64,000 bases of DNA from Halobacteria archaeon AArc-dxtr1 (lineage in GTDB: Archaea; Halobacteriota; Halobacteria; Halobacteriales; Natrialbaceae). The notes below the pieces were generated by a model. It searched no databases. It saw only the letters and a list, made by a program, of their open reading frames with translations, and had not been told where the DNA came from. Shown here one piece after another: positions 32,068 through 64,000 of the stretch; within the stretch, counting starts at the first letter, position 1, and each line of letters starts with the position of its first letter. Location of the stretch: the NCBI GenBank assembly GCA_025517425.1, contig JAOPJY010000004.1, positions 62,001-126,000 of the forward strand, in the 5' to 3' direction. The position numbers were made by a program, and so were the translations under genes.

Positions 32068-34053
32068 TTATTCGTCGTTGTTGTCGTCAGCGCCGTTATC
32101 GTCGTCGGCGCCGTTCTCTTCGTCATCATCGTCGACGTCGTTGTCGTCGACGTCCTCCTCGTCATCGTCATCGTGCTCGTCGGCCGGCACGATCCGACTG
32201 ACGTACCCCTCGCCCTCGATGGTGGAGGAATCGCTCGTTAGCACGTACACCTCGCCGTCGTCGTCGCGGCCGAAGGCGTTGACAAACTGCTGCATCATGC
32301 CGTCGTCGGCCAGCTCCTCGTCGTCGCTCTCGACCGTGAGCTCTTCCATCTCCCAGAGGTCGACCTCGTCCGGCGGGTGGTACCGTTCTAAGTCTTCGTC
32401 GCCGACGCCGTTCTCGTCGTCGTTCTCATCCTCGTCGTCGACATCGTTCTCGTCGTTGTCGGCGTTATCGACGTCGTTGTCGTCGTTGTTCTCTACGTCG
32501 TTGTCGTTTTCATCGGCGTCGTTTTCGTCTTCATCATCATTTTCGTGATCCATCCACTCCTCGTCTGGATGGGCGATGAACAGCCGACCGCCTTCGCCGC
32601 CGTCCCAGCTCCAGTCGCCGAAGATGTACGTGTCCTCGAGGTCCTCGACCTCGCTTCCCTCGTACATGTAGCCGCCGATGATCGCGGTTCCGATACGGTC
32701 GCGATCGTCGCCGATCGTTCCGGCTTCGTCGTACTCGTCTGCGTACCGGCCCATGTCTGCCTCCTGTGGGTACTCGAGGACTGGACCGAGCAGGGGCTCG
32801 CCACCGCGGGGCTCGGTGACGTCGTCGTCGACCGAGTCGGGGCAGTCTTCGGGCGGCTCCTCGGGGGTGTCCGGATCGAAGCAGTGAGTCCCTTCCCAGG
32901 GATTCCACGCGTAGTTGCCGCCGGCCTCGACGTGGTTGACGATCTCGAACAGCGCCTGTCCCACGTCGCCGGTTAGCAACTCGCCGTCCTCGAAGGACAT
33001 CCGCCACGGGTTTCGCAGTCCCCAGGCCCAGTACTCGGGTAGCTGGCCCTCGTCTTCGTAGTCGACCAGCGGATTATCGTCGGGGATGCCGTAGTTGCGC
33101 TCGTCGTCGCCGTCGTCGTCGACGTCGATCCGCAGGATGCCGCCGAGGAGGTTGTGCTCGGTGTCCTGGCCGTTTCCACCCTCGATCTCGTCGTACCAGT
33201 CCTCGACGTGCCCCTCGTCGGCGTCGCCTGCGCCGCCACCGTCGCCGGTGGTGACGTAGAGGTAGTCGTCGGGACCGAACCGGATCGGGCCGGCGTTGTG
33301 GTTGAACTGTGGCTGTGCGATCTCGAGGATAATCTCCTCGGAGTCGGGGTCGACCTCCGTATTGTCGTCGTCGGTCGTCTCGAATCGAGACAGCCGGTCT
33401 AAGTGATCGACCTCTTCGGGAACCTCGGTGCCGGGGGCGCCGTACTCCGGCTCATCGCCTTCGGCACTATACCGCACGAAGATCTGTCCGTTCTCCTCGA
33501 ATTCGGGGTGGAACGCGAGCCCCAGTAGCCCTCGCTCATCGAAGTCGTCGTCGAGGTCGACCATATCCTCTGGGGTGTCGAGGAAGATGTTGTTGTCATT
33601 GTCGTCAACGTCGTTTTCATCGTTCTCGTCGGCGTCGTTATCGTTCTCATCGGCGCCGTTCTCATCGTCCTCGACGTCGTTGTCGTTCTCGTCGTCCTCG
33701 ACGTCGTTGTCGTCGACGTCCTCGTCCTCCTCGTCGTCATCGTCGACGTCGTTCTCGTCGTGGATATGGATCTGGCCGGTCTGATCGACGATGAACAGCC
33801 GGTCGTCGCCCTCCGGGACCTGGAGGTCGGTGGGCTGATCGAGCCCGTCGGCGATCGTTTCGAGGGCCACCGTTGGCCCCTCACCGAATATCGCGCCGTT
33901 GTCGTCGACGTCCTCGTCGTCATCGTCGACGTCGTTCTCGTCGTCGTCCTGTGCCACTGCTGTCGGTACGCCCAGGGCAGCCACAGCAGTACCGGCTGCG
34001 GCTCCCTGAAGCATCGTTCGCCGTCGAATCTCGGAAATATCTCGTTCTGACAT
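32068..34053 (-). CDS. Tat-exported soluble-glucose-dehydrogenase-like (PQQ-type) beta-propeller with long acidic inserts
   Basis: 661 residues. Tat signal RRRTMLQGAAAGTAVAALG, cleaved near VAQ, no lipobox. The six-bladed GSDH propeller has the signatures GLLGLAFHPEFEENGQIFVR, FNHNAGPIRFGPDDYLYVTT (His253 region), GILRIDVDDDG, WGLRNPWRMSFE and VNHVEAGGNYAWNPWEG; the His in NHNAG matches the catalytic base of soluble glucose dehydrogenase. Odd: four Asp/Glu/Asn runs (residues 36-52, 99-154, 503-553 and 627-661) interrupt or extend the fold. It likely oxidises aldose sugars outside the cell with PQQ; no PQQ-synthesis genes are in view. Confidence 0.85.
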   Translation of the reverse strand: MSERDISEIRRRTMLQGAAAGTAVAALGVPTAVAQDDDENDVDDDDEDVDDNGAIFGEGPTVALETIADGLDQPTDLQVPEGDDRLFIVDQTGQIHIHDENDVDDDDEEDEDVDDNDVEDDENDNDVEDDENGADENDNDADENDENDVDDNDNNIFLDTPEDMVDLDDDFDERGLLGLAFHPEFEENGQIFVRYSAEGDEPEYGAPGTEVPEEVDHLDRLSRFETTDDDNTEVDPDSEEIILEIAQPQFNHNAGPIRFGPDDYLYVTTGDGGGAGDADEGHVEDWYDEIEGGNGQDTEHNLLGGILRIDVDDDGDDERNYGIPDDNPLVDYEDEGQLPEYWAWGLRNPWRMSFEDGELLTGDVGQALFEIVNHVEAGGNYAWNPWEGTHCFDPDTPEEPPEDCPDSVDDDVTEPRGGEPLLGPVLEYPQEADMGRYADEYDEAGTIGDDRDRIGTAIIGGYMYEGSEVEDLEDTYIFGDWSWDGGEGGRLFIAHPDEEWMDHENDDEDENDADENDNDVENNDDNDVDNADNDENDVDDEDENDDENGVGDEDLERYHPPDEVDLWEMEELTVESDDEELADDGMMQQFVNAFGRDDDGEVYVLTSDSSTIEGEGYVSRIVPADEHDDDDEEDVDDNDVDDDDEENGADDDNGADDNNDE

Positions 34054-49124: not shown

Positions 49125-50867
49125 ATGTGTGCTAACACTGAACGGCCCGACGACGGATCAACCGAGGAAACACAGGACCACGACGATACCTCCCGTCGAC
49201 TACTCCAGGGTGCTGGAGCTGCAGCCGGTGCTACTGCGTTGGCCGGCTGTGCGGACATCGTCGACGACATCGTCGACGACGACGATGACGAGCTCGCAGA
49301 CGAGTGGCACCGTGACATCGACGCGGAGGCCGATCCCGACGCCGCAACGGACTGGGACAACTACGAGGTCACCGAAATCCTCGAGCTCGACGACGTACAG
49401 GCGATCGACGTCGCTCCGGACGGGAAGGTCTGGTACGTCAACCGCGGTGCGCACTTCGTGACCCACGGTTCGGACACCTGTCAAATCGGGTGGGTCGATC
49501 CGGACTCCGGCGACCACGAGGTCGCACTTGAACTGGACGTCACCGTCGGCAATCCACACGAGGAGACACTGGCCGAGAACGACGCACGCGAGACGGGCGG
49601 TCAGGGGATCACCTTCGACCCCGACTTCGAGGAGAACGGCTACGTCTACGTGAGCTATCACCCGGCCTGGGACGACATGGAGGATATCGGCCCCAGCCCG
49701 TACGAAGAGTTCTACGAGGTAACCGACGAGATCGACCACGACGGCGACGTTTCGTTCGGTTACCAGCTCGTCTCACGGTTCGAGGTCACAGACGACGATA
49801 CGATCGATCCGGATTCCGAGACCGAGATCATCCGCATCCCCGAGCAGTTCGACTACTGCTGTCACCGTGGCGGCGACCTCGAGTTCGACAACGTCGGTCA
49901 TCTCTACATCTCGACCGGTGACGACGTCACCTCTGGCTGGTCGCTGTGGTCTCCGGCCGACGATCGTGAAATGGCTCACCCGGCGTTCGACGCACGACGT
50001 ACGGCCGCAAATACGGCGGATCTCCGCGGGAGCATCCTTCGGATCATTCCCCAGGAGGACGGCGGCTACACCGTCCCGCCGGACAACCTGTTCCCGTTCG
50101 GCGAGTACCAACAGGAGATCTCCGAGGGGAAGGTCCGCCCCGAGATTTACTCGATGGGGTACCGCAACCCCTACCGGATCGAAGTCGACGATCACACCGG
50201 TGCCGTCTTCGTTGGCGACTACGCCCCTGCCGGAAACTGGACTGACGAGCGGGGTCCTGACGGAATGGCAACCTATCACCTCCTCTGTGAGCCCCAGAAC
50301 GCTGGATGGCCACTCTTCAAAGGATACTACCCGTACCGCCGGTGGGACTACGAGGAGGAAGAGCCAGGTCAACCCTACTGGCCCGACAACCTTCGCAACG
50401 ACTCGCGGAACAACACTGGCCTGGAGAAGTTACCTGACGCCACGCCGGCACTCGTTTGGCAGGCCTACTCCTCCTGGAATGAGTACCCGGTGCTCGCGGA
50501 AGAGGAGCTTCCGTGGGTCGATCTCCCTCGTCCGGGCGAACCAACCTGGCCAGAGCTGCCGACGTCCGGTTCGGCGAACGCAGGTATCGCATACCGGTAC
50601 TCGGATGACTACGGTGAGGGTGCACTCGACCCGTACTTCGAGGGTAAGCAGTTCCTACTCGGTATGTACGACCACTCGGATGAGCGGATCTACTACCTGA
50701 CGTTCAACGAGGACGGTAGCATCGACATCGACACCTTCATGCCGGACAACGAGTTCGAAACGCCATCGGACACGGAGGTCGGTCCCAATGGCCGACTCTT
50801 CTTGGCCGACTACGGCGGCTGGACCGGCGACGAGGGAGCGATCTACATGATTGAGTACGATCCCTGA
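49125..50867 (+). CDS. Tat lipoprotein, GSDH-like (PQQ-type) sugar dehydrogenase 1
   Basis: 580 residues. Twin-Arg [19 protein letters not shown] with lipobox Cys42, so anchored to the outer face of the membrane. Propeller of the soluble-glucose-dehydrogenase superfamily: [20 protein letters not shown] (His after vicinal Cys), [40 protein letters not shown] and [20 protein letters not shown]. First of three tandem paralogues sharing [20 protein letters not shown]. Expected PQQ cofactor and aldose-like substrate are inferred from family. Confidence 0.88.
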
Positions 50868-51009
50868 CCGCCGTCTGGGCGCGATTCGCGCTCTGATATC
50901 AATGTCCTACCTGGACTAAATATTGTGTTATACCCCCTCAAAGTCGTGTTAACCATTTCCTACTGATTGTTCCTCATGTTAACGACATTTTAATGCCACT
51001 TGCCGAAAG

Positions 51010-51043
51010 GCTTTTTTGGTCATGAAAATACAGTACCCATAGA
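51010..51043 (+). promoter_or_regulatory. Promoter of sugar dehydrogenase 2
   Basis: gctttttt (51010-51017) about 27-33 bases before ATG 51044, giving a leaderless transcript. acagtaccc (51029-51037) sits close to the ATG, matching the paralogue-1 element. Confidence 0.45.
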
Positions 51044-52798
51044 ATGTGTAGCAAGCACACATCGACACAGACTGACGAAGATCTACGAGCCGAAGAGACG
51101 GACGCTCCCGAATCCTCGCAGCCCGGGGACGCTGCGGCGGATGCAGGGAACGGCCGTCGCCGACTGCTCCAGGGTGCGGGGGCCGCAGCTGGTGCCACTG
51201 CGTTGGCCGGCTGTGCGGACATCGTCGACGATCTCTTAGACGACGAAGACGAACTCGGAGACGAGTGGCACCGCGACATCGATGCGGAGGCCGACCCCGA
51301 CGCTGCCACGGACTGGGACAACTACGAAGTTACCAGCATCCTGACCGTCGACGACCTGATGGCGCTCGACGTCGACCCCGACGACAACATCTGGTACATT
51401 AACCGCGGGGCGAACTTCACTACCCACGGCGACGCTACCTGTCAGGTCGGCTATGTCGACCCCGATACCGAAGAACACACGGTCGCGCTCGAACTCGACG
51501 TGATGGTCGGCTCCGAGGAATTCGTCGACGGCGGCGAAGCCCGTGAGCTGGGTGGACAGGGGGTCGCGATCTGTCCGAACTTCGAGGAGACTGGCCACGT
51601 CTACGTTTACTATCACCCCTCGAGCGAGAACATCGAGGAGATTGACAACCCGTACCACGAGGATATCAACACCTACCTCCAGCAGGTCTCGCGCTTCGAA
51701 TTCGACGGCGAGGAACTCGACCCTGATTCCGAGGAAACGGTTATCCAGATCCCGTTCCAGCTCGACACCTGCTGTCACTACGGTGGCTACCTCGAGTTCG
51801 GTCCGGAAGGATACCTCTACGTCTCCACCGGTGACGACTCCCAGAACGTCGGCAACCCCGACGACGAGGTCAACTGGTTCATGGGCGACGAGCGCGAGGG
51901 AATCATCAACGATCGTCCAGCGCCCGTCTCGGACGCTCAGCGAACCTCCGGCAACACGGCCGACCTCCGCGGAAGCATCCTCCGGATCATCCCCGAAGAG
52001 GACGGTGGCTACACGGTTCCCCCGGACAACCTGTTCCCGTACAGCGAGTACGAAGACGAGATCTCCGAAGGCCTCGTCCGCCCTGAGATCTACTCGATGG
52101 GATTCCGGAATCCGTACGTCATCCACGCCGACGAACACACTGGCAACCTCTGGGTGTCTGACTACGCCAACGACGCGGACTCATGGGACCCAGATCAGGG
52201 GCCGATGGGGATCGCGACACACTTCCACATCTGTGAGCCGATCAACGGCGGCTGGCCATACTTCAAAGCGTTCTACCCGTACCGCGACCGCGACTACGAG
52301 GCTGGCGAGCCAGGTCAGCCGTTCTGGCCCGACAACCTCCGCAACGACTCGCCGAACAACACTGGCCTGGAGAAGCTACCTGACGTCACTCCGGCGACGC
52401 TCTGGCACAGCAACAACTGGGACGACTACACTGACGCTGCGGCGTGGGTCGACATGCCCGTGCCCGGTGAAGTCACGTGGCCCGACCTGCCCGCCTCCGG
52501 CTCGGCGAACGCCGGTATCGCCTACCGATATCCGGACGAACCGGGAGACGGCGCACTCGATCCCTACTTCGAGGGCAAGCAGTTCATCCTGACCCCGTAC
52601 GGCGGCGGCGGGTGGATTGGCTACCTGACCTTCGGCGAGGACGGTTCGGTCGAGGCCAACGACTTCTTGCCTGACAGCGATATCGGTACCCCGACGGACA
52701 TGGAGTCTGACTCTGAGGGTCGGGTTTACGTCATGGAGTACGGCTCCGTCTGGAGCGGCGCAGACAGCCAGATCCACAAGATCGAGTACACCGGATAA
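51044..52798 (+). CDS. Tat lipoprotein, GSDH-like sugar dehydrogenase 2
   Basis: 584 residues. The Tat/lipobox tract [21 protein letters not shown]57 is almost identical to paralogue 1, and the start of the mature chain repeats [20 protein letters not shown]. Propeller: [60 protein letters not shown] and [21 protein letters not shown] blade carries a typical NVGNPDDEVNWFMGDERE insertion, shared with paralogue 3 but not 1. Separated from paralogue 1 by 176 bp; probably own promoter. Confidence 0.88.
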   Translation: MCSKHTSTQTDEDLRAEETDAPESSQPGDAAADAGNGRRRLLQGAGAAAGATALAGCADIVDDLLDDEDELGDEWHRDIDAEADPDAATDWDNYEVTSILTVDDLMALDVDPDDNIWYINRGANFTTHGDATCQVGYVDPDTEEHTVALELDVMVGSEEFVDGGEARELGGQGVAICPNFEETGHVYVYYHPSSENIEEIDNPYHEDINTYLQQVSRFEFDGEELDPDSEETVIQIPFQLDTCCHYGGYLEFGPEGYLYVSTGDDSQNVGNPDDEVNWFMGDEREGIINDRPAPVSDAQRTSGNTADLRGSILRIIPEEDGGYTVPPDNLFPYSEYEDEISEGLVRPEIYSMGFRNPYVIHADEHTGNLWVSDYANDADSWDPDQGPMGIATHFHICEPINGGWPYFKAFYPYRDRDYEAGEPGQPFWPDNLRNDSPNNTGLEKLPDVTPATLWHSNNWDDYTDAAAWVDMPVPGEVTWPDLPASGSANAGIAYRYPDEPGDGALDPYFEGKQFILTPYGGGGWIGYLTFGEDGSVEANDFLPDSDIGTPTDMESDSEGRVYVMEYGSVWSGADSQIHKIEYTG

Positions 52799-53193
52799 CG
52801 TCCGAACCACTCGAACGCGACACCGTTCTTTCTCGATCTCGTTTCTCTACGCTCCTGAGATCGGCTTCGATTCACACCCCTCGTAGTCTGTCCCTTCCTT
52901 GGCGAATCCGTACGTTCCTACGCTCGCCAATCGAAATCAACGCTTATCCGACATCGCCACTACCGCTTGAAGTCATGCGATCTCGCCAGTGAATACGTTA
53001 TTACTCCTCTCCGAATAACATTTAATATATGGCATATAGAGCGGCTACAGCGCGGATTGATTTCGAACTCGGCCACTGCTCCATTCGGGTGTGCTTTCTC
53101 CCTCGACCAGCTTTATGTGACTATCGCTCTCTTGGACCTGTCTTCTAACAATACTAGCAACTTTTCCCACCGACCCTGGGTAGTTTTCGGCAT
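52799..53193. other. AT-richer intergenic stretch before sugar dehydrogenase 3
   Basis: About 395 bases, no credible gene. A strong TATA-like tttaatatat at 53021-53030 lies 164 bases before the ATG, so transcript 3 may have a leader. The candidate reading through 52967-53281 is rejected. Confidence 0.5.
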
Positions 53194-55026
53194 ATGCCCA
53201 ACGATAAGACCACACAGGGCAGTACCGACTCGATCGGCTCAAAGATGCGCCGAGGGCTCTTTCAGGGTGCCGGCGCACTGAGCGCGCTTGGGCTGGCTGG
53301 CTGTCTTGGTGGCGTCGACGAAGAGGAGGAAAACGGTGAGGAGACCGAAAACGGTGAAGAAACCGAAAACGGCGAGGAGACCGAAAACGGCGAGGAACGC
53401 TCCTCGGAGTGGTATCGAGACTTAGACGAGGAGGCAGATTCCGACGCCGCAACCGACTGGGACAACTACGAGGTGACCGAACTCGTCGAGGTCGAGAATC
53501 TGATGGCGATCGACGTCGACCCCGAGGACCGCGTCTGGTATATTAACCGCGGCGACGTCTTCCCGACGTACGGGGACGGAACCTGCCAGATTGGCTGGGT
53601 CGACGCCGACGGCGAACACGAGGTCGCACTCGAACTCGACGTCTCGCTCGGCGCCGTTCCCCAGGACTGGGGCGTCGACGACTGGGAGGAACTGGAGGAG
53701 GCAGAAGAGAACGACGACGACGAAGACGACGATGAGGAAGAGGCCGAACCGCCGGAGATGGCAACCCGTGAACTCGGGGGACAGGGGATCGCGATCGATC
53801 CCGACTTCCAGGACAACGGCTACGTCTACATCTGGTATCATCCCTCCAGCGAGGACCAGACCGAGGTCGACAACCCCTACAACGAGGGGATCTCGATGGC
53901 TAACGCCCACGTGTCTCGGTTCGTCTTCGACGATGGCGAACTCGACCCCGACTCCGAGGAGGTCATCCTCGAGATTCCGTACAACCGAACGACCTGCTGT
54001 CACCACGGCGGCTACCTCGAGTTCGGCCCCGAGGGTGATCTCTACATCACGACTGGTGACAACTCGAACAACGTTGGCAACCCCGACGGCGAAATCGACT
54101 GGTTCATGGGCGACGAGCGTGAGGGCGAGATTCACGGCCGGCCGGCGGCGGTTTCCGACGCCCAGCGCACCTCCGGTAACACCGCCGATCTCCGCGGGAG
54201 CATTCTCCGCATTACACCCACCGAGGACGGCTACGAGGTTCCCGAGGGGAACTTAAAACACGTCCACGAGGACGAACACGACGAGGAGTGGAGCGACGAG
54301 GAGTTCCGTCCCGAGATTTACGCGATGGGCTTTCGGAACCCGTACGTCATCCACGCCGACCAGCATACTGGCAACCTCTGGGTGTCTGACTACGCCAATG
54401 ACGCCGCGAGCTGGGAGGAGGATCAGGGGCCGATGGGGATCGCGACTCATCACCTCATCTGTGACCCGATAAACGGCGGCTGGCCGTACTGCAAGGCGTA
54501 CTACCCCTACCGCTACTACGACTACGAGGCCGACGAGCCGGGACAGCCCTTCTGGCCCGAGAATCTCCGGAACCGCTCGCCGAACAACACCGGCATCGAA
54601 CCCCTGCCGGACTTCACGCCCGCGACGCTCTGGCACAGCAACAACTGGGACGAGTACGAGAACGCGCCCGCGTGGGTCGACATGCCCCGGCCGGGTGAGG
54701 TCTCCTGGCCGGAACTGCCGGCGTCTGGCTCCGCAAACGCCGGCGTCGCCTACCGCTACCCCGACGACCCCGCCGACGGCGCGTTCGACCCCTACTTCGA
54801 GGGCGCGCAGTTCTTCATGACGCCGTTCGTCGAGGGATGGGTCGGCTACGCTCACTTCAACGACGACGGCACGATCGACATCGGTGAGTTCCTCCCCGAG
54901 GAGTTCGCCGTCCCGACCGATATGGAGTACGACTCCCAGGGTCGGGTCTATCTGATGGACTACGGTGAAGGGTTCGGCGGCGACGGCGAGAACGCCGGCA
55001 TTCACCTGATCGAGTACACCGGCTGA
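53194..55026 (+). CDS. Tat lipoprotein, GSDH-like sugar dehydrogenase 3
   Basis: 610 residues. Signal KMRRGLFQGAGALSALGLAG with lipobox Cys37, then an ENGEETE-type repeat (about residues 45-69) and mature chain starting [20 protein letters not shown]. Same fold as the two paralogues: [61 protein letters not shown] second acidic run (WEELEEAEENDDDEDDDEEE, residues about 165-186) is extra. The linker differs from paralogues 1 and 2, so the N-terminus evolved separately. Confidence 0.87.
   Translation: MPNDKTTQGSTDSIGSKMRRGLFQGAGALSALGLAGCLGGVDEEEENGEETENGEETENGEETENGEERSSEWYRDLDEEADSDAATDWDNYEVTELVEVENLMAIDVDPEDRVWYINRGDVFPTYGDGTCQIGWVDADGEHEVALELDVSLGAVPQDWGVDDWEELEEAEENDDDEDDDEEEAEPPEMATRELGGQGIAIDPDFQDNGYVYIWYHPSSEDQTEVDNPYNEGISMANAHVSRFVFDDGELDPDSEEVILEIPYNRTTCCHHGGYLEFGPEGDLYITTGDNSNNVGNPDGEIDWFMGDEREGEIHGRPAAVSDAQRTSGNTADLRGSILRITPTEDGYEVPEGNLKHVHEDEHDEEWSDEEFRPEIYAMGFRNPYVIHADQHTGNLWVSDYANDAASWEEDQGPMGIATHHLICDPINGGWPYCKAYYPYRYYDYEADEPGQPFWPENLRNRSPNNTGIEPLPDFTPATLWHSNNWDEYENAPAWVDMPRPGEVSWPELPASGSANAGVAYRYPDDPADGAFDPYFEGAQFFMTPFVEGWVGYAHFNDDGTIDIGEFLPEEFAVPTDMEYDSQGRVYLMDYGEGFGGDGENAGIHLIEYTG
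53326..53400 (+). repeat. In-frame 18-base tandem repeat in sugar dehydrogenase 3
   Basis: Unit gagaccgaaaacggcgag, about four copies with silent changes (ggtgag/ggtgaa/ggcgag), coding ENGEET units in the lipoprotein linker. Slippage-prone and likely length-variable among strains. Confidence 0.8.
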
Positions 55027-55111
55027 CTCTCGCTCCCTGTCGGATCACTCACCGTACTTCGGACCGATTTCGAACGAAAAGAAACTGCAAATCGAAGCGC
55101 GGATTCGGCGC

Positions 55112-56938
55112 TTACTCCGCTTGCTCGATCTTGATACCGCTGATTTTCGGCCAGTCCTCAACCGATTCTAACAGCACAACGAGCTCTCCATCGTTCACTT
55201 CGACGGTGTGCGTTTCGTCGTAGGCAGTCGCGGGTCCGACCGCTTCGACGATATCGAACTCCTCCATGACGAGCTCGTCGTTGAGGGAGATGTTCGTGAC
55301 TCGTTCGCCGACGTCTTCCTCTCCGTGGAACGACTCTCCGAAGTAAAGCGTCACGTCGTAGGTGCCGTTCTCGAGGGGGAACGTGTACTCGATGTCGGAC
55401 TCCTCGACGCCGTGTTCCTCGCTGCCGTAGAGGTCGTCGTACTCGGTTCCCTCGACGTCGTCGATCCAGTTGCCACCGTCAACATCGCCTTCGATACCGA
55501 TGAACGGCGACTCGCTCGTGAAGGTGGCGCCGTCGGCCTCCATGTCGTCGACGGTTCCACCGGAGGCGTTGTAACCAAACGGTGTCTCGAAGCCGCCGAA
55601 CTCGCGGACCTCGATGGCTTTGAACGCCGTGCTGTCCTCGATCGACTCCGTTTCGATCGAGATGACGTTGTCGGTTACCTCAATGGGGAACGTCTGTGGG
55701 GTCGCGATGAACGCGCCGTCAGCTTCCGCGTAGGGATCGAACTCTGAGAGGACCTCTTCGCCGTTGATCGTCACATCGAAGACACGGTCGCCTTCGCCGC
55801 CTTCACCACTTCCGCCGTCCTCACCGTGCCACGTCTCGGCAAAGTGCAGCGTCACGTTGTACTGGCCGTTCTCGAAGGGGATGTCGAATCCGATATCCCC
55901 TCCCCAGTGCTCCGTGAGGTAAAGTTCGTCGTGCTCGGTGTTTCCGACCTCTTGCTCGTCTCGAACCGCGACGTTGAGATCTCCGGACGCCGTGACCTGC
56001 TCTGGAATGTGTTCGTCGAAGGTGAGTCCGTCGACCTCGACCGGTCCGTAGACACCTTCCTCCTCGTCGGTGTCGCCGTCTTCACCTTCGCCGCCGTTGT
56101 TCAGTCCCCACGGCGCCGAGAGCGGTTCGACGACCGAGGCGTCGACCGTGACGGAGACGTCGGCATCCTCGTCGAAGATACTGTAACTGACGTCGGCGGT
56201 CAACTCGGCTTCCTCCTCGGCGTCGTCAGAGACGTCGACCTCCCAGCTCGCGTCCTGGCTGCCGATGAATCCGTCGAGGTCCGCTCCATCCTCGTCCTCG
56301 ACGCTCCAGCCGTCTGGCACGCTGAGTTCGACGGTTCCCGAATCGATGGCGACGTTGTACGGACTGTCGATCGTCGCCTCCACGGTGTTCTCTCCGACGA
56401 CGACCTGGACGGGGTCGTCGTCGAAGCTGAGGAGGGGGTGGGGATCGTCGCCGATGACGGGCTCGACGGTGAACGCGCCCATCTCGTCGTCGTCGTCGGT
56501 GAATACGCCGTAATCGTACTCGTCAGGGGTGAGGTCCTCTGTGCCCGCGTCGAAGCTGACGGTGTCCTCCTCGCCGCCGTCGAGTTCGAGGTCCTGTTCT
56601 CCCTCGACGTCGCCGTCGACGTGGAACTCGACGGTCTGTTCGCCGCTGTCCTCGCCGGTGTTCTCGATGGTCGCCTCGACCGAGACGCTGTCGCCGCGGG
56701 TGACGCTCTCCTCGGCCACTTCGAGGTCGGTCACGTCGAAAGAAGCCGGTTCGGGCTCGTCGTCGTCACCATTTGCGTCGTCGCCGTTGGCATCGTCGCC
56801 GTTCTCGTCGTCATCGTCGTCTCCCCCGAGACAGCCGGCCAGCACGCCGGCAACGCCAGTGGCACCGACACCCTGTAACACGCGTCGTCGGGATGCTCGG
56901 TCCGCCACAGACTCGTCTCGCTCCTGGTCAGTTGTCAT
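55112..56938 (-). CDS. Tat lipoprotein with CARDB-like and two malectin domains
   Basis: 608 residues. Signal SRRRVLQGVGATGVAGVLAG, lipobox Cys36. After a DDDENGDDANGDD linker, a CARDB-like domain (FDVTDLEVAEESVTRGDSVS, TIENTGEDSGEQTVEFHVDG) and a further beta segment, then two malectin-like domains (about 295-430 and 452-607): QYNVTLHFAETWHGED and FEDVTINGEE-like segments, and TYDVTLYFGESFHGEEDVGE. Malectins bind disaccharides, so a cell-surface sugar-binding role is inferred. Convergent with sugar dehydrogenase 3. Confidence 0.82.
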   Translation of the reverse strand: MTTDQERDESVADRASRRRVLQGVGATGVAGVLAGCLGGDDDDDENGDDANGDDANGDDDEPEPASFDVTDLEVAEESVTRGDSVSVEATIENTGEDSGEQTVEFHVDGDVEGEQDLELDGGEEDTVSFDAGTEDLTPDEYDYGVFTDDDDEMGAFTVEPVIGDDPHPLLSFDDDPVQVVVGENTVEATIDSPYNVAIDSGTVELSVPDGWSVEDEDGADLDGFIGSQDASWEVDVSDDAEEEAELTADVSYSIFDEDADVSVTVDASVVEPLSAPWGLNNGGEGEDGDTDEEEGVYGPVEVDGLTFDEHIPEQVTASGDLNVAVRDEQEVGNTEHDELYLTEHWGGDIGFDIPFENGQYNVTLHFAETWHGEDGGSGEGGEGDRVFDVTINGEEVLSEFDPYAEADGAFIATPQTFPIEVTDNVISIETESIEDSTAFKAIEVREFGGFETPFGYNASGGTVDDMEADGATFTSESPFIGIEGDVDGGNWIDDVEGTEYDDLYGSEEHGVEESDIEYTFPLENGTYDVTLYFGESFHGEEDVGERVTNISLNDELVMEEFDIVEAVGPATAYDETHTVEVNDGELVVLLESVEDWPKISGIKIEQAE

Positions 56939-56964
56939 ACATATCTGTCCGCGGTACCACTTCC

Positions 56965-56973
56965 AAATAAATC
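56965..56973 (-). promoter_or_regulatory. TATA box of malectin gene
   Basis: On the minus strand, tttattt is 27-33 bases before ATG 56938, with a short aagtggtaccgcgg stretch between. Consistent with a leaderless transcript. Confidence 0.5.
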
Positions 56974-57006
56974 TATTGCTCCCGAAATTAGCCGGGTTAG
57001 GGCCTC

Positions 57007-58125
57007 TCAGACCGTCTCGATCCAGCCGCCGTCTGCGTCGGAGCGCTCGACGGCGTCGAGTAACTCCTGGACACGGTAGCCATCGGCGAACGAGGGCGTG
57101 TGCTCTTCACCGTCGCGAACCGCCGAGAGGAACTCGTAGTTCGCGTGGACGAACGTGTGCTCCCAGCCCAGTACGTGACCCGGCGGCCACCAGTGGTCGA
57201 CGTAGGGGTCGCTCTCTTCTGTGACCATGATCGTCTTGAAGCCCCGATCGTCGGCGCCGCGGTACTCCAGTTCGTTCAGTTTCTCGATCGTAAACCGCAG
57301 GCTCCCTTCGGAGCCGTTGATCTCCATGCTCAGATCGTTCTTGTGACCCGTCGCGAACCGGGAGGCCTCGACGGTCGCCGTGGCGCCGTTTTCGAGCTCC
57401 GCGTGAGCGGTGAAGGCGTCGTCAACGGTGACGTCTCGCATCTCGGAGCCGTCTTCCGTCGGGCGCTCGTCGACGAACGTCTGGAGGTTGCCGTTGATGC
57501 GCTCGACGGGGCCGGCCTGCTCGCCGACGAGGAATCGGACGAGGTCTAACGTGTGCGATCCCAGATCGCCGAGGGCGCCGCTGCCGGCGTACTCCTCTTC
57601 GAGTCGCCAGCTCCAGGGCGCCTCGGGATCGACGAGCCAGTCCTGGAGGTACTGGCCGCGCACGTGGTGAATCTCGCCGAGTTCGCCCGACTGGATCAGG
57701 TTGCGGGCGTACTGTATGGCGGGAATGAATCGGTAGTTGAAGGTGACGCCGGCGGTTCCTGCCGAGTCAGAAGCCGCATCGCGCATCGCCTCCGCCCCCT
57801 CGATCGTGTGGGCCAGGGGTTTCTCGGAGAACACCGATGCCCCTTCTTCCAGCGCGGCGACGGAGGGCTCTTCGTGGAGCCAGTTCGGCCCCAGATTGTA
57901 GAGAACGTCGACCTCGTCGACGACCTCCTCCCAGTCGGTCGCGATCCGGTCGAAGCCGTACAGATCGGCGGCTTCTTCCAGTGCCTCCTCGTTGCGCCCG
58001 ATCAGGACGTCCAGTTCGACCTCGGGGGCGTCCGGGAAGAACATCGGGAGCCGCTGTAAGGCGTTGGAGTGTGCCTTACCCATGAATCGATACCCCAGCA
58101 TGCCGATGGAGAGTGGTTCGCTCAT
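57007..58125 (-). CDS. Gfo/Idh/MocA-family oxidoreductase
   Basis: 372 residues from ATG 58125. Rossmann: SIGMLGYRFMGKAHSNALQR, VLIGRNEEALEEAADLYGFD. EKP motif SEKPLAHTIEGAEAM near residue 97, then GVTFNYRFIPAIQYARNLIQ, SGALGDLGSHTLDLVRFLVG (family C-terminal domain with His) and YVDHWWPPGHVLGWEHTFVH. NAD(P)-dependent oxidation or reduction of a sugar, inositol or 3-keto sugar. No signal peptide: cytoplasmic. Follows the isomerase gene by 10 bp, so an operon. A longer frame to 58185 is not used. Confidence 0.92.
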   Translation of the reverse strand: MSEPLSIGMLGYRFMGKAHSNALQRLPMFFPDAPEVELDVLIGRNEEALEEAADLYGFDRIATDWEEVVDEVDVLYNLGPNWLHEEPSVAALEEGASVFSEKPLAHTIEGAEAMRDAASDSAGTAGVTFNYRFIPAIQYARNLIQSGELGEIHHVRGQYLQDWLVDPEAPWSWRLEEEYAGSGALGDLGSHTLDLVRFLVGEQAGPVERINGNLQTFVDERPTEDGSEMRDVTVDDAFTAHAELENGATATVEASRFATGHKNDLSMEINGSEGSLRFTIEKLNELEYRGADDRGFKTIMVTEESDPYVDHWWPPGHVLGWEHTFVHANYEFLSAVRDGEEHTPSFADGYRVQELLDAVERSDADGGWIETV

Positions 58126-58135
58126 CGTGATCACC

Positions 58136-59104
58136 TTAGACCCAGTATGCGTCGCCGGGCTGACTTTCGAACACCGCGCGTTCAAGCATATCGATTCCCT
58201 TCTCGAGCCCCTCGAGCGAGGAGGTAAGCGAGTCCTCGTGCTCGATCGAGATGGCGCCGTCGTAGCCGACCATCCGCAGCGTCGAGACGACGTTCTTCCA
58301 GAACTCCTCGCCGTGGCCGTAGCCGATCGAACGGAACAGCCAGGATCGGTTGACCTCGTCCGTGTACGGCGTCATGTCGAGGACCCCCTTCTGTCGGACT
58401 TCTGGCTCGTAGACCTTTGCGTCCTTGGCGTGGACGTGGTGGATGGCGTCCTCGCGCCCGAGGGTTCGGATACACTCACTAATGTCGATTCCTTGCCAGA
58501 TAAGGTGGGAGGGATCTAAGTTCGCCCCGATGCGGTCGCCGGTCTCCTCGCGCAGGCGAAGCAGTCCGCGGGGTTCGTAGACGAGCATGTTGGGGTGCAT
58601 CTCGAGGCCGACGTTGACGCCGTGGTCCTCGGCGAAGTCGGCGATTTCAGACCAGTACGGAATCGCGACCTCCTCCCACTGATACTCGTGGGCCTCTAGG
58701 TGCTCGTTTGGCCACGGAGCAGTGAGCCAGTTTGGCACCTGGGCGCTCTCACTTCCACCAGGCAGCCCCGAGAACGTCGTGACGTTCTCGACGCCGAGCT
58801 GGGAGGCCAGTCGGATGGTTTCGCGAAGTTCTTCGTCGTCGTGAGCGGCGCGCTCGTCGTCTGGATGGATCGGATTGTTGTGCGTCGACAGGGCAGAGAT
58901 ATACAGATCGTGTTCGTCGAGCATCGCCTGGAGTTCCTCCTGGGCGTCCTCGTTGTCGAGGTACTCGTCGCGAGGCAGATGGTCGTCACCGGTGAAGCCG
59001 CCACACCCAATCTCGACTGCGCCCACGCCCCGGTCGGCGAGTTTGGCCAACGCGTCGGGAAGCGGATCGTCGCTGAGTGCCACGGTCAGCACGCCTAATT
59101 CCAT
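58136..59104 (-). CDS. TIM-barrel sugar isomerase/epimerase (xylose isomerase-like)
   Basis: 322 residues, no signal. VEIGCGGFTGDDHLPRDEYL, HDLYISALSTHNNPIHPDDE, VNVGLEMHPNMLVYEPRGLL, IGANLDPSHLIWQGIDISEC and HHVHAKDAKVYEPEVRQ carry the family's metal-binding Glu/His/Asp pattern (E..H, D, H). Cytoplasmic, and in one operon with Gfo/Idh/MocA downstream. Substrate probably a keto-sugar or inositol derivative; not decided. Confidence 0.9.
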   Translation of the reverse strand: MELGVLTVALSDDPLPDALAKLADRGVGAVEIGCGGFTGDDHLPRDEYLDNEDAQEELQAMLDEHDLYISALSTHNNPIHPDDERAAHDDEELRETIRLASQLGVENVTTFSGLPGGSESAQVPNWLTAPWPNEHLEAHEYQWEEVAIPYWSEIADFAEDHGVNVGLEMHPNMLVYEPRGLLRLREETGDRIGANLDPSHLIWQGIDISECIRTLGREDAIHHVHAKDAKVYEPEVRQKGVLDMTPYTDEVNRSWLFRSIGYGHGEEFWKNVVSTLRMVGYDGAISIEHEDSLTSSLEGLEKGIDMLERAVFESQPGDAYWV

Positions 59105-59128
59105 ATCCGAAACGTCGATGCCAATTAC

Positions 59129-59138
59129 CTAAAATATG
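59129..59138 (-). promoter_or_regulatory. TATA box of isomerase-oxidoreductase operon
   Basis: Minus-strand catattttagg centred about 30 bases before ATG 59104. A leaderless transcript for the two-gene operon is the likely reading. Confidence 0.55.
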
Positions 59139-59210
59139 ATGGTTTCGCTCGCCCGCAGGCCGGCTCAGCCTGATGCTACCGCGCGATCGAATCGGTTTTC
59201 GTCCTGTTCG

Positions 59211-60038
59211 CTACTCGCTGACGACGAAGATGTTCCCCTGCATCTGTGCGTGGGGCAAGCAGCGGTAGTAGGTCATCTCCGACGATGCAGTAAACTCGAG
59301 TGTCTGCTCGTCGTCGTTGGTCAGTTCGGTCGCGTAGTCGTCGACGATCTCTTCGTTCTGGTCCCAGAGTTCGACGTTGTGTGAATCACCGTCGCCGTTC
59401 TCCCAGGTAAACTCGTACTCCTGTCCTTCGAACAGCACCAGCGTCGCGTTGGTTTCACCCTCGATCATCTCGGGTTCCATACCGTCCCAGCCACCTCTGG
59501 TCCCTTCGACGCGGATCGACTCGACGTCTTCCCACTCGCTGGCATCGATCAGTTCGATCGTCGCCGTTTCGTCGTCGTCGTCGCTGTAGACGCCGTATTC
59601 TATCTCTCCAGAACCGTGTTCGCTGGTATCGACGTCGAACTCGACCGTTTCCTCGTCTCCGCCGTCGAGGGAGACCGTCTGCACGTCGGTGGCATCGCCG
59701 TCGACACGGAGTTCGATGTCTTGCTCCCCGTCCTCGTCCCCGACGTTTGCGATCGTTGCACTCACGTCGACCATCTCGTCGGCCGGAACGGTGATGTCTC
59801 CGGGACTGAGATCGTCCACGTCGAACGACGCAGCTTCCGGCTCTCCGTTGCCGTTGTCGTCGCCATTCTCGTCGTCACCGTTTGCGTCGTCGCCGTTGCC
59901 GTCGTCGTCGCCATTCTCGTCGTCGTCGCCGAGACAACCGGCGAGTAATCCAGTCATACCGACCGCACCCATTCCCTGTAGGACACGTCTTCGATAGCGC
60001 AGTCTATCCGTATTTACAGCCGTTCGGTCGTCTTTGGC
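59211..60038 (-). CDS. Tat lipoprotein with CARDB-like and cupredoxin domains (1)
   Basis: 275 residues from ATG 60038. RYRRRVLQGMGAVGMTGLLA with lipobox Cys36. Asp/Gly/Asn linker (ENGDDDGNGDDANGDDENGD), a CARDB-like domain (FDVDDLSPGDITVPADEMVD) and a C-terminal cupredoxin: FTWENGDGDSHNVELWDQNE supplies the first His and YYRCLPHAQMQGN gives Cys, His, Met (C-x2-H-x2-M, amicyanin-like). A blue-copper electron carrier at the cell surface, probably. Start at 60038 is supported by a TATA box about 30 bases upstream (gcttatt, 60066-60072), which makes the longer frame to 60074 unlikely. Confidence 0.85.
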   Translation of the reverse strand, partial: AKDDRTAVNTDRLRYRRRVLQGMGAVGMTGLLAGCLGDDDENGDDDGNGDDANGDDENGDDNGNGEPEAASFDVDDLSPGDITVPADEMVDVSATIANVGDEDGEQDIELRVDGDATDVQTVSLDGGDEETVEFDVDTSEHGSGEIEYGVYSDDDDETATIELIDASEWEDVESIRVEGTRGGWDGMEPEMIEGETNATLVLFEGQEYEFTWENGDGDSHNVELWDQNEEIVDDYATELTNDDEQTLEFTASSEMTYYRCLPHAQMQGNIFVVSE

Positions 60039-60232
60039 CATGTAATCTTTCATCCGTTTAGGATGAATAAGCATATTGGTTCACCTCGTGAATTGTGAAC
60101 ACACGTTTCGGGTCGGCGCGCTACGCGTCCGGTTCCCCTGCGCATGAACATCTTACGGCCAAATTCTCGCTCTTCAGAACGGGGTGAATAGCATGCGGCC
60201 CGATATGGCCGGCCCGGTAGAACCGATCTCCG

Positions 60233-61336
60233 CTATTCGACGTCTATCTCGCCGCGCATGGCGAGTGGGTGAGGCATGCACAAGTACTCGGCCATGTCAT
60301 CCGTGGCGGTGAACGTAACCGTCTCTGTCTCCCCCTCACCGGAGACCCCGTCCGTACTGACCAGCGTATCACCGCCTTCGGTTTCGATCTCGAAGTTGTG
60401 GAACATCCCATCAACGTTCTCCCATTCGAGCGTATACTCTTGGTCGGCGTGCAGTTCCAGCGTCGGGTTCTCTTCACCGGCGATCTGGTCGGGAGCAACG
60501 CCTACCCATGCCGAGCGATCACCCTCGAGTTCGATCGTTGCGAACGGATCCTCGACCGTCAGCGTCCCCGTCACGTTGTCGTTGCTCGAGTAGACGCCGT
60601 AGCTGTACTCGCCGACGAGATCGTCGGTCCCAACTCCTTCGAAGCTAACCGACTCCGACGCTTCTGGTTCGAGCGTGAGTTCTTGGGAGTCGACAGCGTC
60701 GCCGTCGATTCGTAGTTCGATGTCCTGTGTGCCGTCTTGTTCGCCGGTGTTGGTGACCGTCGCGGAGACGTCGATTTCATCGCCGGGATCGACCGTCACG
60801 GCTTCGGGATCGAGGTCGCTGACCTCGAAGTAGGCGTCGTCAGGATCGGCAGCCTCTTGCACAGTCAGCGTTCCCGTCTCTTCGTCGTCGTCCGAGTGAA
60901 CACCGTACGTGTAACCATCAGCCTCGAACTCCTCGGTCGCGACGCCCTCGAACGAGACGGTTTCCTCGCCGTCGGCATCGAGTGAAACGTCTTCGACTGC
61001 GAGCGTGTCATCGTCGACGCGCAGTTCGATGTCCTGCTCGCCGTCCTGCTCGCCCGTGTTGGTGATCGTCGCGGAGACGTCGATCTCATCACCTTCGGTG
61101 ATCGTCAGCGAGTCGGGATCTAACTCGCTGACCTCGAAGATGGCGGGTTCGGGCTCGCCGTTGTCGTCGCCATTCCCATCGTCGTGGTCATGATCGTCGT
61201 CACCGTTTCCGTCGTCGTCACCGTTGGCATCGTCGCCGTTCTCGTCGTCATCGCCGAGACAGCCTGCAAGGAGGGCTAGGGACCCGGCTCCACCGGTCAG
61301 CTTCAGTAGTGTACGTCGAGATGTATAGTCGGCCAT
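60233..61336 (-). CDS. Tat lipoprotein with two CARDB-like and one cupredoxin-like domain (2)
   Basis: 367 residues from ATG 61336. SRRTLLKLTGGAGSLALLAG and lipobox Cys26. A linker (GDDDGNGDDDHDHDDGNGDD), then two CARDB-like repeats (FEVSELDPDSLTITEGDEID and FEVSDLDPEAVTVDPGDEID). The C-terminal cupredoxin has LEWENVDGMFHNFEIETEGG and YLCMPHPLAMRG (C-x2-H-x3-M). Relative to copy 1, one CARDB domain has been duplicated. TATA-like ttcataat is 27-34 bases before the ATG. Likely partner or duplicate of copy 1. Confidence 0.84.
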   Translation of the reverse strand: MADYTSRRTLLKLTGGAGSLALLAGCLGDDDENGDDANGDDDGNGDDDHDHDDGNGDDNGEPEPAIFEVSELDPDSLTITEGDEIDVSATITNTGEQDGEQDIELRVDDDTLAVEDVSLDADGEETVSFEGVATEEFEADGYTYGVHSDDDEETGTLTVQEAADPDDAYFEVSDLDPEAVTVDPGDEIDVSATVTNTGEQDGTQDIELRIDGDAVDSQELTLEPEASESVSFEGVGTDDLVGEYSYGVYSSNDNVTGTLTVEDPFATIELEGDRSAWVGVAPDQIAGEENPTLELHADQEYTLEWENVDGMFHNFEIETEGGDTLVSTDGVSGEGETETVTFTATDDMAEYLCMPHPLAMRGEIDVE

Positions 61337-61788
61337 CACTTAGATACCGGTATATCTGCGATTATGAATCTTCTGTTGTTATTTTTTGTCCCTTTTCCTA
61401 ACCTTCTGTTCGTCTCGAAATACTTTCTTTGGTGTGTGCGTACTCGCGTTTTTGCCCAAGTCCTATTCTTGCCCTGAGAGATTGTCCTGTTTACCGCCCT
61501 CCGTGACCGGTGTCCAACGGCACTCCATTTCTGACATACATCAATTATATTGACTGTATTGGTGGTTTAATCGTACGATCGTCTAAATGTAGGAAACTGG
61601 TTACGTTAGGATCAATACCTGTGCAGGCACTGGGTTACTACCTATTGTTCATCTTTTGCTTTCCTATGGGTACGTTTACCACTCCCAAAACACTTAAGTG
61701 AAATCAGTTTTCTTAGTCATGTACAGCCTATCATTACCACGATTGAAATGGTAGGATACCAACCGACAACCGACGTTTGAAATCCACT
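61337..61788. other. AT-rich intergenic region upstream of exported TIM-barrel genes
   Basis: About 450 bases, notably AT-richer than surrounding genes, no credible gene (a 63-residue reading at 61510-61701 is unlike haloarchaeal protein). Contains cacttaagtg (61688-61697), a TATA-like candidate about 90 bases before ATG 61789, and tggtagg...aaccgaca (61749-61774), conserved before the next paralogue. Confidence 0.5.
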
Positions 61789-62775
61789 ATGAGCGACTCA
61801 CAGAACCATTCGGCAGGCGACGAGACGGAGAACAAAGGCGGAGCAAATCGACGGCGCGTGTTGCAGGGAATCGGTGCGGCTGGTGTCGCAACCGCTGTGG
61901 CGGGGAAAGCGAGTGCTGACGGCCAGTCCGGTCAGTTCAGCCAGGCCGCCGCAGAGGTTTCCGCAGACCACGACGAGATTCCAACGTCGGCACAGTTTTG
62001 GTCGTTCCGCGACAGCGACCTCTCGACCGCGGAACTGGTCTACGAGATGGACGAGGCCGGCTACGACCACTTCGAGCCGTATTCGATCAGCGAGGATTCC
62101 GACACCGAAGCAATCAACGAGGCAATCGACGACACCGGCGTCACGATGGAAAGCGCACACCAGGGTGTCGGCGACGTGCTCGACGATCCCGACGGCGTCG
62201 CTGAGATGTACCTCGAGTACGGCGAACCCGCGCTCATCGAGGCATATATCGGCGGCTGGGATACCGAAGAGGACGTCCTGGACATCGCCCACGATATCAA
62301 CGAGGCGGCGGACCTGATGGCCGATCACGGTCTCGAGTTCGGCTACCACAACCACGACCACGAGTTCGAGCAGATTGAGGACGGCGACGAGATCGCCTTC
62401 GACATCTTCGCGGAGGAGGTCGAAGACCACGTCCACCTCCAGATCGACGCGGGCTGGGTGCTGACTGGCGGCGAAGATCCGATCCACTACATCGTCGAGT
62501 ACGCTGACCTGGTCGAATCGATTCACATGAAGAACATGCGCGACGGCGACTTCGTCGAGATCGACGAGGGCGAAGTTGGCATGCGTGGTGTCGCGACGGC
62601 GGCCCGTAACGCCGCAGACGTCGACCTGCTCGTCTACGAGCACGACGCTCCCGAGGACCCACTCGAGTCCCTCGAGACCGGTGGCTACTGGATGAACAAG
62701 CTGAACCACCCGTATTCGCCCGGTGGTATCTGTGCGATCCCAGGCGCAGACACTCACCCTGCGAAGCTTCAGTAA
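61789..62775 (+). CDS. Tat-exported TIM-barrel sugar isomerase/epimerase-like protein 1
   Basis: 328 residues from ATG 61789 (MSDSQNHSAGDETENKGGAN). NRRRVLQGIGAAGVATAVAG is the Tat signal, with cleavage near KASADG and no lipobox, so a free exported protein. Xylose-isomerase-like TIM barrel: ADLMADHGLEFGYHNHDHEF, VHLQIDAGWVLTGGEDPIHY, ESIHMKNMRDGDFV and VDLLVYEHDAPEDPL. Usual metal ligands (E, D/H, H) are partly visible: HNHDHEFE, IDAG, HMKN. Enzymatic outside the cell would be unusual; binding or processing of an exported keto-sugar is possible. Confidence 0.85.
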   Translation: MSDSQNHSAGDETENKGGANRRRVLQGIGAAGVATAVAGKASADGQSGQFSQAAAEVSADHDEIPTSAQFWSFRDSDLSTAELVYEMDEAGYDHFEPYSISEDSDTEAINEAIDDTGVTMESAHQGVGDVLDDPDGVAEMYLEYGEPALIEAYIGGWDTEEDVLDIAHDINEAADLMADHGLEFGYHNHDHEFEQIEDGDEIAFDIFAEEVEDHVHLQIDAGWVLTGGEDPIHYIVEYADLVESIHMKNMRDGDFVEIDEGEVGMRGVATAARNAADVDLLVYEHDAPEDPLESLETGGYWMNKLNHPYSPGGICAIPGADTHPAKLQ

Positions 62776-62950
62776 GTAGACGATCTGCGTCTATTATTTG
62801 CGGAGATATTTTCGAACAGTAGTAGCTTTTTACTTTCGCAAACCTCTGGCAGAACCGCTCTGCTGCCTCATTTGCAGATGCATACCATCACCGAAACTAT
62901 TATGCGAGATTGCCTGTATAATCACCTTACGGTCTCCAATCAATCCGTAT

Positions 62951-62990
62951 GGTAGGGGACAGCAACCGACAATCGACTATTAAAATCACT
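62951..62990 (+). promoter_or_regulatory. Conserved 5' leader of exported TIM-barrel genes
   Basis: The about 40 bases before ATG 62991 (tggtagggg...aaccgacaatcgactatt) match those before ATG 61789 (tggtagga...aaccgacaaccgacgttt) at most positions with a one-base length difference. The bases are part of the duplicated unit and may carry a regulator site or a 5' leader element. Confidence 0.45.
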
Positions 62991-64000
62991 ATGAGCGACT
63001 CACAGCAGCAATCCACGAGCGATCGTGCGGAGAACAGTGGCGGTTCCAACCGACGGACAGTCCTGCAGGGCATCGGTGCGGCCGGTGTCGCAGGTGCGGT
63101 TGCGGGTAAGGTCAGCGCTGACGGCCAGTCCGGCCAGTTCAGCCAGGCTGCCGCTAACGTCTCGGCCCAGGATGACGACGCGATCCCAACCGGTTCACAG
63201 TTCTGGTCGTTTGCCTCCAACATTGACGACGACTCGAACGTGAACATGATCGAACTGAGCGGGGAGAACGACCTCCACACCTACGAGCCGTTCAGCGTCG
63301 GCCCGGACACGGATCAGGACGAGATCGACGACATGCTCGACGCCGAGGAGGACGCTGGCGTCTACATGAGCAGCGCCCACATCGGCATCGGCGACGTCTT
63401 CGACTCCGAAGAGGACCTCGTCGGCGTCTTCGAGCAGTTCGAAAGCGACGACGGCTACCCGGCGCTGATCGATCCCTCCTACGGAGGCACCAGCGAGTGG
63501 AGCGACGAGGACGAGGTCATCGAGTGGGCCCAGGAGTGTAACGAGGCCGCCGACATCCTGGCCGACCACGACATGGAGTTCGGCTACCACAACCACGACT
63601 GGGAGTTCACCTATCTCGACGGCTCCGACGAGTACGGCTACGACCTCTTCCTCGAGGAAGTCGAGGATCACGTTCACGTCCAGCTGGACGTCGCCTGGTG
63701 TTTCGCCGGCGAGGACCGACCGGATCCGCTCTACTACCTCACCGAGTACGGTGACCAGATCAACTCCCTCCACATGAAAAACTGGGAGGCAGCTGACAAC
63801 CGCTCGCACGGTTCGGGTGAGATGGGTAACGGCGACCTCACCGAGATTCACGAGGGCGACCTCAACATGCGCGCGATCGCGACCGCAGCGCGCAACGCCT
63901 CCGACGTCGAGTACCTCATCTACGAGTACGATCAGGCTCCGAACCCTGAGGAGTCCTTCGAGTACGCCGGCTACTGGTTGAACAAGATCAACCACCCGTG
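62991..64000 (+). CDS. Tat-exported TIM-barrel sugar isomerase/epimerase-like protein 2, 3' end outside window
   Basis: Frame open from ATG 62991 to the window edge (no stop seen). Translation begins MSDSQQQSTSDRAENSGGSN, with Tat RRTVLQGIGAAGVAGAVAGK and the mature start DGQSGQFSQAAANVSAQ, nearly the same as paralogue 1. The barrel shows EFGYHNHDWEFTYLDGSDEY, VHVQLDVAWCFAGEDRPDPL, LHMKNWEAADNRSHGSGEMG and ending YAGYWLNKINHP. Tandem duplicate; leader of about 40 bases is also duplicated. Missing 3' end is only a few tens of codons judging by copy 1. Confidence 0.88.
   Translation, partial: MSDSQQQSTSDRAENSGGSNRRTVLQGIGAAGVAGAVAGKVSADGQSGQFSQAAANVSAQDDDAIPTGSQFWSFASNIDDDSNVNMIELSGENDLHTYEPFSVGPDTDQDEIDDMLDAEEDAGVYMSSAHIGIGDVFDSEEDLVGVFEQFESDDGYPALIDPSYGGTSEWSDEDEVIEWAQECNEAADILADHDMEFGYHNHDWEFTYLDGSDEYGYDLFLEEVEDHVHVQLDVAWCFAGEDRPDPLYYLTEYGDQINSLHMKNWEAADNRSHGSGEMGNGDLTEIHEGDLNMRAIATAARNASDVEYLIYEYDQAPNPEESFEYAGYWLNKINHP

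Follow-up and report, generated by a model that had tools for sequence, protein, structure and literature searches.

The stretch of DNA analysed here, called the window below, comprises 64,000 nucleotides of the haloarchaeon AArc-dxtr1 (positions 62001-126000 of contig C4, in a genome of 2.8 Mb), and its last 15 kb carry an island of genes that we discuss as a predicted system for cleaving sugars at the cell surface. The initial annotation had described this set by its signals, lipoboxes, folds and gene order, and all ten proteins were found in place with these domains and signals. On the forward strand lie three lipoproteins of the twin-arginine translocation (Tat) type, each with a six-bladed GSDH-like propeller of what we call the CCH subfamily (49125..50867, a candidate C3-oxidising module, 51044..52798 and 53194..55026); all three exceed the 25-bit cut-off of PF07995, with 60, 58.9 and 61.6 bits. 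The reverse strand then holds a Tat lipoprotein with CARDB, NEW3-like and two malectin domains (55112..56938; PF11721 152.5 bits, PF07705 34.5 bits), presumed to be a glycan-binding scaffold, and an operon of a cytoplasmic Gfo/Idh/MocA dehydrogenase (57007..58125; PF22725/PF01408), a candidate 3-keto-sugar reductase, and a cytoplasmic triosephosphate isomerase (TIM) barrel (58136..59104; PF01261 118.8 bits), a candidate 2-hydroxy-3-keto-glycal hydratase. Two candidate electron acceptors follow on the same strand, both Tat lipoproteins: one with a CARDB and a cupredoxin domain (P0007, 59211..60074; CARDB 24.1 bits) and one with two CARDB domains and an amicyanin-like cupredoxin (60233..61336). 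Back on the forward strand are two Tat-exported TIM barrels, candidate 3-keto-glycoside 1,2-lyases (61789..62775 and 62949..64000), the second of which continues for 61 bases past the window and ends at C4:126,061.

The island thus crosses the window end. It includes a third exported TIM barrel (C4:126282-127547, or L016:1282-2547), which has a long C-terminal tail made almost purely of Glu and Ala, and a further cytoplasmic TIM barrel (C4:127568-128416), and it stops at C4:128,416 with unrelated genes beyond. A pattern search found Tat-like twin-arginine motifs and LAGC lipoboxes in the propellers, the malectin protein and the cupredoxins, the twin-arginine stretch of P0001 (SRRLLQ) falling outside the search pattern. 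The exported TIM barrels have the Tat motif and no lipobox Cys, and the same search returned neither motif for the Gfo/Idh and cytoplasmic TIM proteins.

Lyase-type TIM barrels and the cytoplasmic pair

The first and second exported TIM barrels score 37.5 and 26.4 bits in Pfam, respectively above and below the cut-off of 31.1 bits. A profile search of the PDB relates them to 8bvk, 8tct, 8tcs and 8tcd (hmmsearch E 3e-21 to 2e-19). An exported barrel was also modelled, with a predicted local distance difference test score (pLDDT) of 76, mostly above 90 in the barrel, and a disordered signal region; its top folds are 3obe, 8tct, 8tcr, 8tcd, 3l23 and 8bvk (Foldseek E 6e-16 to 8e-12), with template modelling scores of up to 0.86 by target and an identity of about 19-21% in the fold matches. 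Of these structures, which include lyases of the Mn-dependent type, 8tct is the 3-keto-beta-glucopyranoside-1,2-lyase of B. thetaiotaomicron, 8tcr and 8tcd are an Alistipes lyase, and 8bvk is AtOGE; the AL1 and BT1 lyases (8tcd, 8tcr, 8tct) reportedly come from a study of 2024, probably that of Nasseri et al. The metal ligands of AtOGE are H132, D163, H189 and, weakly, E233, and its catalytic residue is H134 (PMC10628242). H191, D224, H250, E288 and H193 of the exported barrel align with H132, D163, H189, E233 and H134 of AtOGE, and among 13 haloarchaeal sequences H191, D224 and H250 are invariant and E288 and H193 nearly so. This alignment is the strongest functional evidence within the island, and it strongly suggests that the exported TIM barrels are metal-dependent 3-keto-glycoside 1,2-lyases. 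The archaeal proteins share the TIM barrel fold with AL1/BT1 and AtOGE, and with AtOGE the aligned metal ligands and catalytic His, yet they differ in being Tat-exported and in standing beside, or being fused with, propellers, cupredoxins and malectin.

Since the exported barrels match 3-keto-glycoside lyases, the chemistry predicted for the island is an oxidation at C3, after which the bond is cleaved by elimination, rather than an oxidation at C1. The earlier proposal that the propellers oxidise a surface sugar is therefore kept as far as surface oxidation is concerned, and a reading as C1 oxidation by a glucose dehydrogenase dependent on pyrroloquinoline quinone (PQQ) is not the favoured one.

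The cytoplasmic TIM barrel has SCO6571 (2zds) and the 2-hydroxy-3-keto-glucal hydratase AtHYD (8ro4, E 9e-12) among its relatives. Aligned by eye, it shares conserved E, D, H and E barrel positions with AtHYD, where they presumably serve as ligands. It is a candidate hydratase, with other sugar isomerase or dehydratase activities possible. Its operon partner has the features of the Gfo/Idh/MocA family, namely a Rossmann domain (PF01408/PF22725 above cut-off), the EKP lysine (EKP at 101) and the GDxGxH histidine (GDLGSH at 186), and its nearest PDB entries are 4h3v and 6a3f; judged by sequence it is a relative, not a member, of the levoglucosan dehydrogenase LgdA group. These likely relationships agree with the initial suggestion that the cytoplasmic pair handles the product of the surface enzymes. 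The orthologous genes are likewise adjacent to each other in the sister genome G271 (L110), where a propeller is nearby, and in G208 (L108, L109), where their neighbours are fusions of lyase and propeller. In a further genome, G264, the hydratase-like TIM gene is broken into several short frames next to an intact Gfo/Idh neighbour (L106:10220-10779), and is either a pseudogene or the product of sequencing errors.

Oxidation, elimination, hydration and reduction form the established four-step order of levoglucosan breakdown (PMC7676230). The island resembles the LgdA/LgdB1/LgdB2/LgdC system of that route in its predicted order of C3 oxidation, elimination, hydration and reduction, and in combining a Gfo/Idh-family dehydrogenase with two different sugar-isomerase-like proteins. 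The first enzyme of the levoglucosan route, however, is an NAD+-dependent dehydrogenase, and no surface step is described for that route, whereas the first two steps of the island are predicted to be extracellular with copper proteins as acceptor.

Propellers, copper proteins and their co-inheritance

The sequence of propeller 3 matches those of propellers 1 and 2 at about 47-64% identity, and the genome encodes about 14 GSDH proteins, mostly of one subfamily, in which most members carry CCH at the active-site His. A model of propeller 2 (pLDDT 84.4) has as fold neighbours soluble glucose dehydrogenase (sGDH; 5min/1cq1), Asd, HHIP and AA12. An alignment of 31 members and E. coli Asd shows no variation at the catalytic His (H245) or at the R355/N356 pair, residues that in PQQ enzymes adjoin the quinone. 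The island propellers thus share with sGDH, Asd and AA12 the six blades, the active-site His and the Arg/Asn pair, but they lack the Lys/Arg that hold the PQQ carboxylates, and have a CCH motif and an RNxSxNNxG stretch; propellers of this kind also occur fused to cupredoxin, ThuA or a 3-keto hydrolase. A fourth GSDH propeller in the window (32068-34053, reverse strand), outside the island, is a classical one of another subfamily; it carries a Tat signal, and its long linkers are rich in Asp, Glu and Asn. Contig C1 (about 1,716.7-1,717.8 kb; L023:6741-7826) has short cupredoxin and propeller fragments resembling gene remnants, with an intact propeller and a protein of three cupredoxins close by.

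Both cupredoxins of the window have the full type-1 copper ligand set, H/C/H/M, as in blue copper proteins of the amicyanin/halocyanin type; the one at 60233..61336, which has amicyanin matches in the PDB, scores 37.3 bits and P0007 18.9 bits against the Copper-bind cut-off of 21.2 bits. They differ from that type in their CARDB spacers and lipid anchor, and in relatives cupredoxins are fused directly to propellers. The full ligand pattern is found in 32 of the 52 cupredoxin domains of the examined loci, and most of the standalone and C-terminal copies have it; by these ligands, electron-carrier function is best supported for the standalone and C-terminal cupredoxins. In L035, L053, L054 and L105-L107, N-terminal cupredoxin domains often have Gln for Met, and others are without Cys and His. 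The window also encodes a multicopper oxidase with an N-terminal lipoprotein-like signal (7852-9105, forward strand), and multicopper oxidases adjoin propeller/lyase genes in Natronococcus and Haladaptatus too.

The view that cupredoxins are partners of the propellers is borne out by propeller-cupredoxin fusions in about nine other genomes. In other haloarchaea, among them Halostagnicola, Natronococcus, Haladaptatus, Halocatena and Halorubrum saccharovorum, the fusion partners of propellers are cupredoxins (at one end or both), PF06439, malectin and ThuA, and a TIM barrel is fused to PF06439. The propeller open reading frames of G271, a genome placed in the same genus as the window's, encode 1,347 and 1,089 amino acids and match the locus of Halostagnicola sp. 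A-GB9-2, so the window is probably from Halostagnicola. A 1,879-residue protein of G264 with a Tat-like signal joins cupredoxin, two TIM barrels, ThuA, propeller, malectin, PKD and a second cupredoxin. The window's own genome has two proteins in which ThuA is joined to a propeller and one of 1,745 residues with CARDB, propeller, two PF06439, malectin-like and cupredoxin domains. In this last protein (L025:3069-8306, C2:3069-8306) one cupredoxin precedes a Tat/lipobox-like stretch at residues ~157-180, and would stay cytoplasmic unless the true start is internal. In a Runella homologue, a cytochrome c domain stands where the haloarchaeal proteins have cupredoxin. PF06439, the 3-keto-disaccharide hydrolase family, includes the 3-ketotrehalose hydrolase BT2157 (PMC9007349). 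Together, these fusions link the propeller with a redox carrier on the one hand and with the chemistry of 3-keto sugars on the other.

In order to address co-inheritance, we used 391 haloarchaeal genomes, taking propellers at E <= 1e-60 and lyase-type TIM barrels at E < 1e-55. The propeller was found in 11 genomes, the lyase in 10 and both in 9 (Fisher p = 1e-15, or 6e-8 counted by genus); genomes of one genus are not independent. In all nine genomes with both, the two genes lie on a single contig within about 7 kb, and the expectation of co-inheritance voiced in the initial annotation is thereby supported. The lyase cut-off was set after the scores were known; at that point they move only from 1e-56 to 1e-54, and a clear gap lies higher. 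The count of ten takes in two weaker members (G208, G360), without which the overlap is 7 of 8, and weak TIM matches around E 1e-50 in many genomes were rejected as lyase orthologues and assigned to other PF01261 members. Scanning the GTDB collection for the pattern of the propeller alignment yielded three loci only, and whole-genome searches found more.

These numbers bear on a rival explanation of the island, a loose collection of Tat-exported proteins in one region with no common pathway. Tandem duplication of the three propellers and of the TIM barrels would fit such a collection, as would the many CARDB lipoproteins elsewhere in the genome, but a propeller lies within about 7 kb in 9 of the 10 lyase genomes and all modules occur fused in single proteins. 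Because the same families recur as neighbours and fusions in other genera, we do not regard the island as a chance grouping, and a loose collection is hardly credible; it is refuted for the propeller, the lyase, the cupredoxin and the cytoplasmic pair, CARDB domains as such not being covered. The idea of a system survived a check of the two findings that had been named as speaking against it, scattered genes and cupredoxins routinely beside unrelated enzymes.

The distribution is patchy, the propeller being absent from two other genomes of the same genus, and in three species the propeller/lyase set is on large plasmids, which together suggest horizontal spread. In Natronococcus, Haladaptatus and Halocatena the system comes with genes for a BMP-type ATP-binding cassette (ABC) transporter. 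On plasmids of Natronococcus sp. CG52 and Halocatena salina (L088, L090), propeller/lyase genes adjoin a TatD hydrolase, a UbiA prenyltransferase and an inositol-3-phosphate synthase, together with TIM barrels and a nucleotide pyrophosphatase, a group that we take to be reminiscent of Ebo-type clusters.

A predicted surface pathway through 3-keto-glycosides

We predict, with a probability of about two in three, that the island encodes a cell-surface pathway for the non-hydrolytic cleavage of glycosides through 3-keto intermediates. Lipid-anchored propellers would act as oxidases on C3 of a glucosyl-type unit, with the electrons going to the membrane-tethered type-1 copper proteins. The Tat-exported lyases, a role strongly suggested by active-site conservation, would then release the aglycone or next sugar by extracellular elimination, leaving a 2-hydroxy-3-keto-glycal. 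This product would enter the cell, where the cytoplasmic TIM barrel would hydrate it and the Gfo/Idh/MocA enzyme would reduce C3, yielding an ordinary sugar; homology and the conserved adjacency of the pair suggest these cytoplasmic steps. The malectin lipoprotein may keep the glycan near the enzymes. We infer the propeller to be the C3-oxidase because of its fusions, its invariant active-site residues and the lack of a glucose-methanol-choline (GMC) oxidase in the window's genome. A parallel to these first steps is the Caulobacter lactose pathway of LacABC and DUF1080 (PMC9007349), which likewise has C3 oxidation outside the cytoplasm, then 3-keto-sugar cleavage, and PF06439 proteins; its oxidase is the three-component LacABC, whereas the island's genome is without a GMC protein and has the propeller instead.

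Several observations weigh against this pathway. The window part of the island holds no sugar transporter, and the Gfo/Idh protein reaches 310 bits where the levoglucosan dehydrogenase equivalog NF052479 requires 650. Many N-terminal fused cupredoxins end in C-PH-SQ, with Gln at the axial Met position, or have lost the Cys, so some of them are probably not electron carriers. A GMC C3-oxidase was considered as the supplier of 3-keto sugar; the window's genome has no GMC flavoprotein, though 10 of the 11 propeller genomes carry some GMC protein elsewhere and PF13618 is present in some relatives, which makes the absence a weak argument for the propeller as C3-oxidase. The cofactor of the propellers is a further difficulty: in a comparison made by sequence alignment, the position of the PQQ-carboxylate Lys (ALKD of Asd, Lys377) has no basic residue in the 31 members, the Arg positions of Asd QRIRD have none except one Arg in one sequence, and PqqC was above cut-off in 0 of 194 Halobacteria, with 14 control genomes also giving no positive. 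A non-catalytic role for the propeller, as in its close fold match HHIP, is possible.

With the PQQ-binding Lys and Arg missing and no PqqC found, PQQ use by the propellers is not supported, if still conceivable. The loss of Lys377 was dropped as a disproof in its own right, because AA12 enzymes lack Lys377 as well and retain one Arg (PMC6881789); these fungal enzymes use PQQ without being able to make it (PMC6881789, PMC6881810). The island propellers might in the same way be ordinary PQQ aldose dehydrogenases that act at C1 of free sugars with scavenged PQQ and cupredoxin acceptors, the lyase-like TIM barrels being product isomerases. The GSDH match, the sGDH and Asd folds and the invariant His and Arg/Asn pair would suit such enzymes, but the lost carboxylate contacts and the lack of a PqqC hit in the 194 genomes do not, and the partner enzymes act on 3-keto sugars rather than aldonolactones, which makes this explanation quite improbable.

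The same loss of PQQ contacts would also suit propellers that are non-redox platforms, which bind glycan and arrange lyases, 3-keto hydrolases and malectin on the surface, the 3-keto sugar coming from another oxidase or organism. HHIP is not known as an enzyme, and the many carbohydrate-binding domains fused to propellers fit a platform too. However, the active-site His and Arg/Asn pair are invariant, two unrelated redox domains, cupredoxin and cytochrome c, are fused to the propeller family, and the window's genome has no GMC C3-oxidase; we consider a platform unlikely. If the propellers oxidise at C3 without PQQ, then another bound cofactor, a metal or the Cys pair adjoining the active-site His may perhaps take its place. 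We only tentatively propose, and on balance doubt, the fullest version of this, in which CCH propellers are new surface glycoside C3-dehydrogenases that pass electrons to a fused or tethered cupredoxin, so that together with the exported lyase they would give archaea a complete machine for oxidative sugar cleavage outside the cell.

The set had been put forward as without described precedent. Its parts are less unprecedented than that, because most are known in bacterial pathways, and bacteria are also known to have the chemistry and most of the enzyme families. What still looks new is the arrangement in an archaeon, at the cell surface and linked to cupredoxins. In the open-access literature, outside which many journals lie, we found 3-keto-glycoside cleavage described neither for archaea nor in a cupredoxin-linked form. 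In the predicted pathway, blue copper proteins take the place of the cytochrome c domain seen in a bacterial relative. The non-hydrolytic cleavage of 3-keto-glycosides is a recently recognised route of glycan breakdown that has so far been described in bacteria and, if the prediction is true, its occurrence at the surface of haloarchaea would carry it into another domain of life. It would also give a function to proteins now annotated as PQQ-dependent sugar dehydrogenases, an annotation that would thereby become testable.

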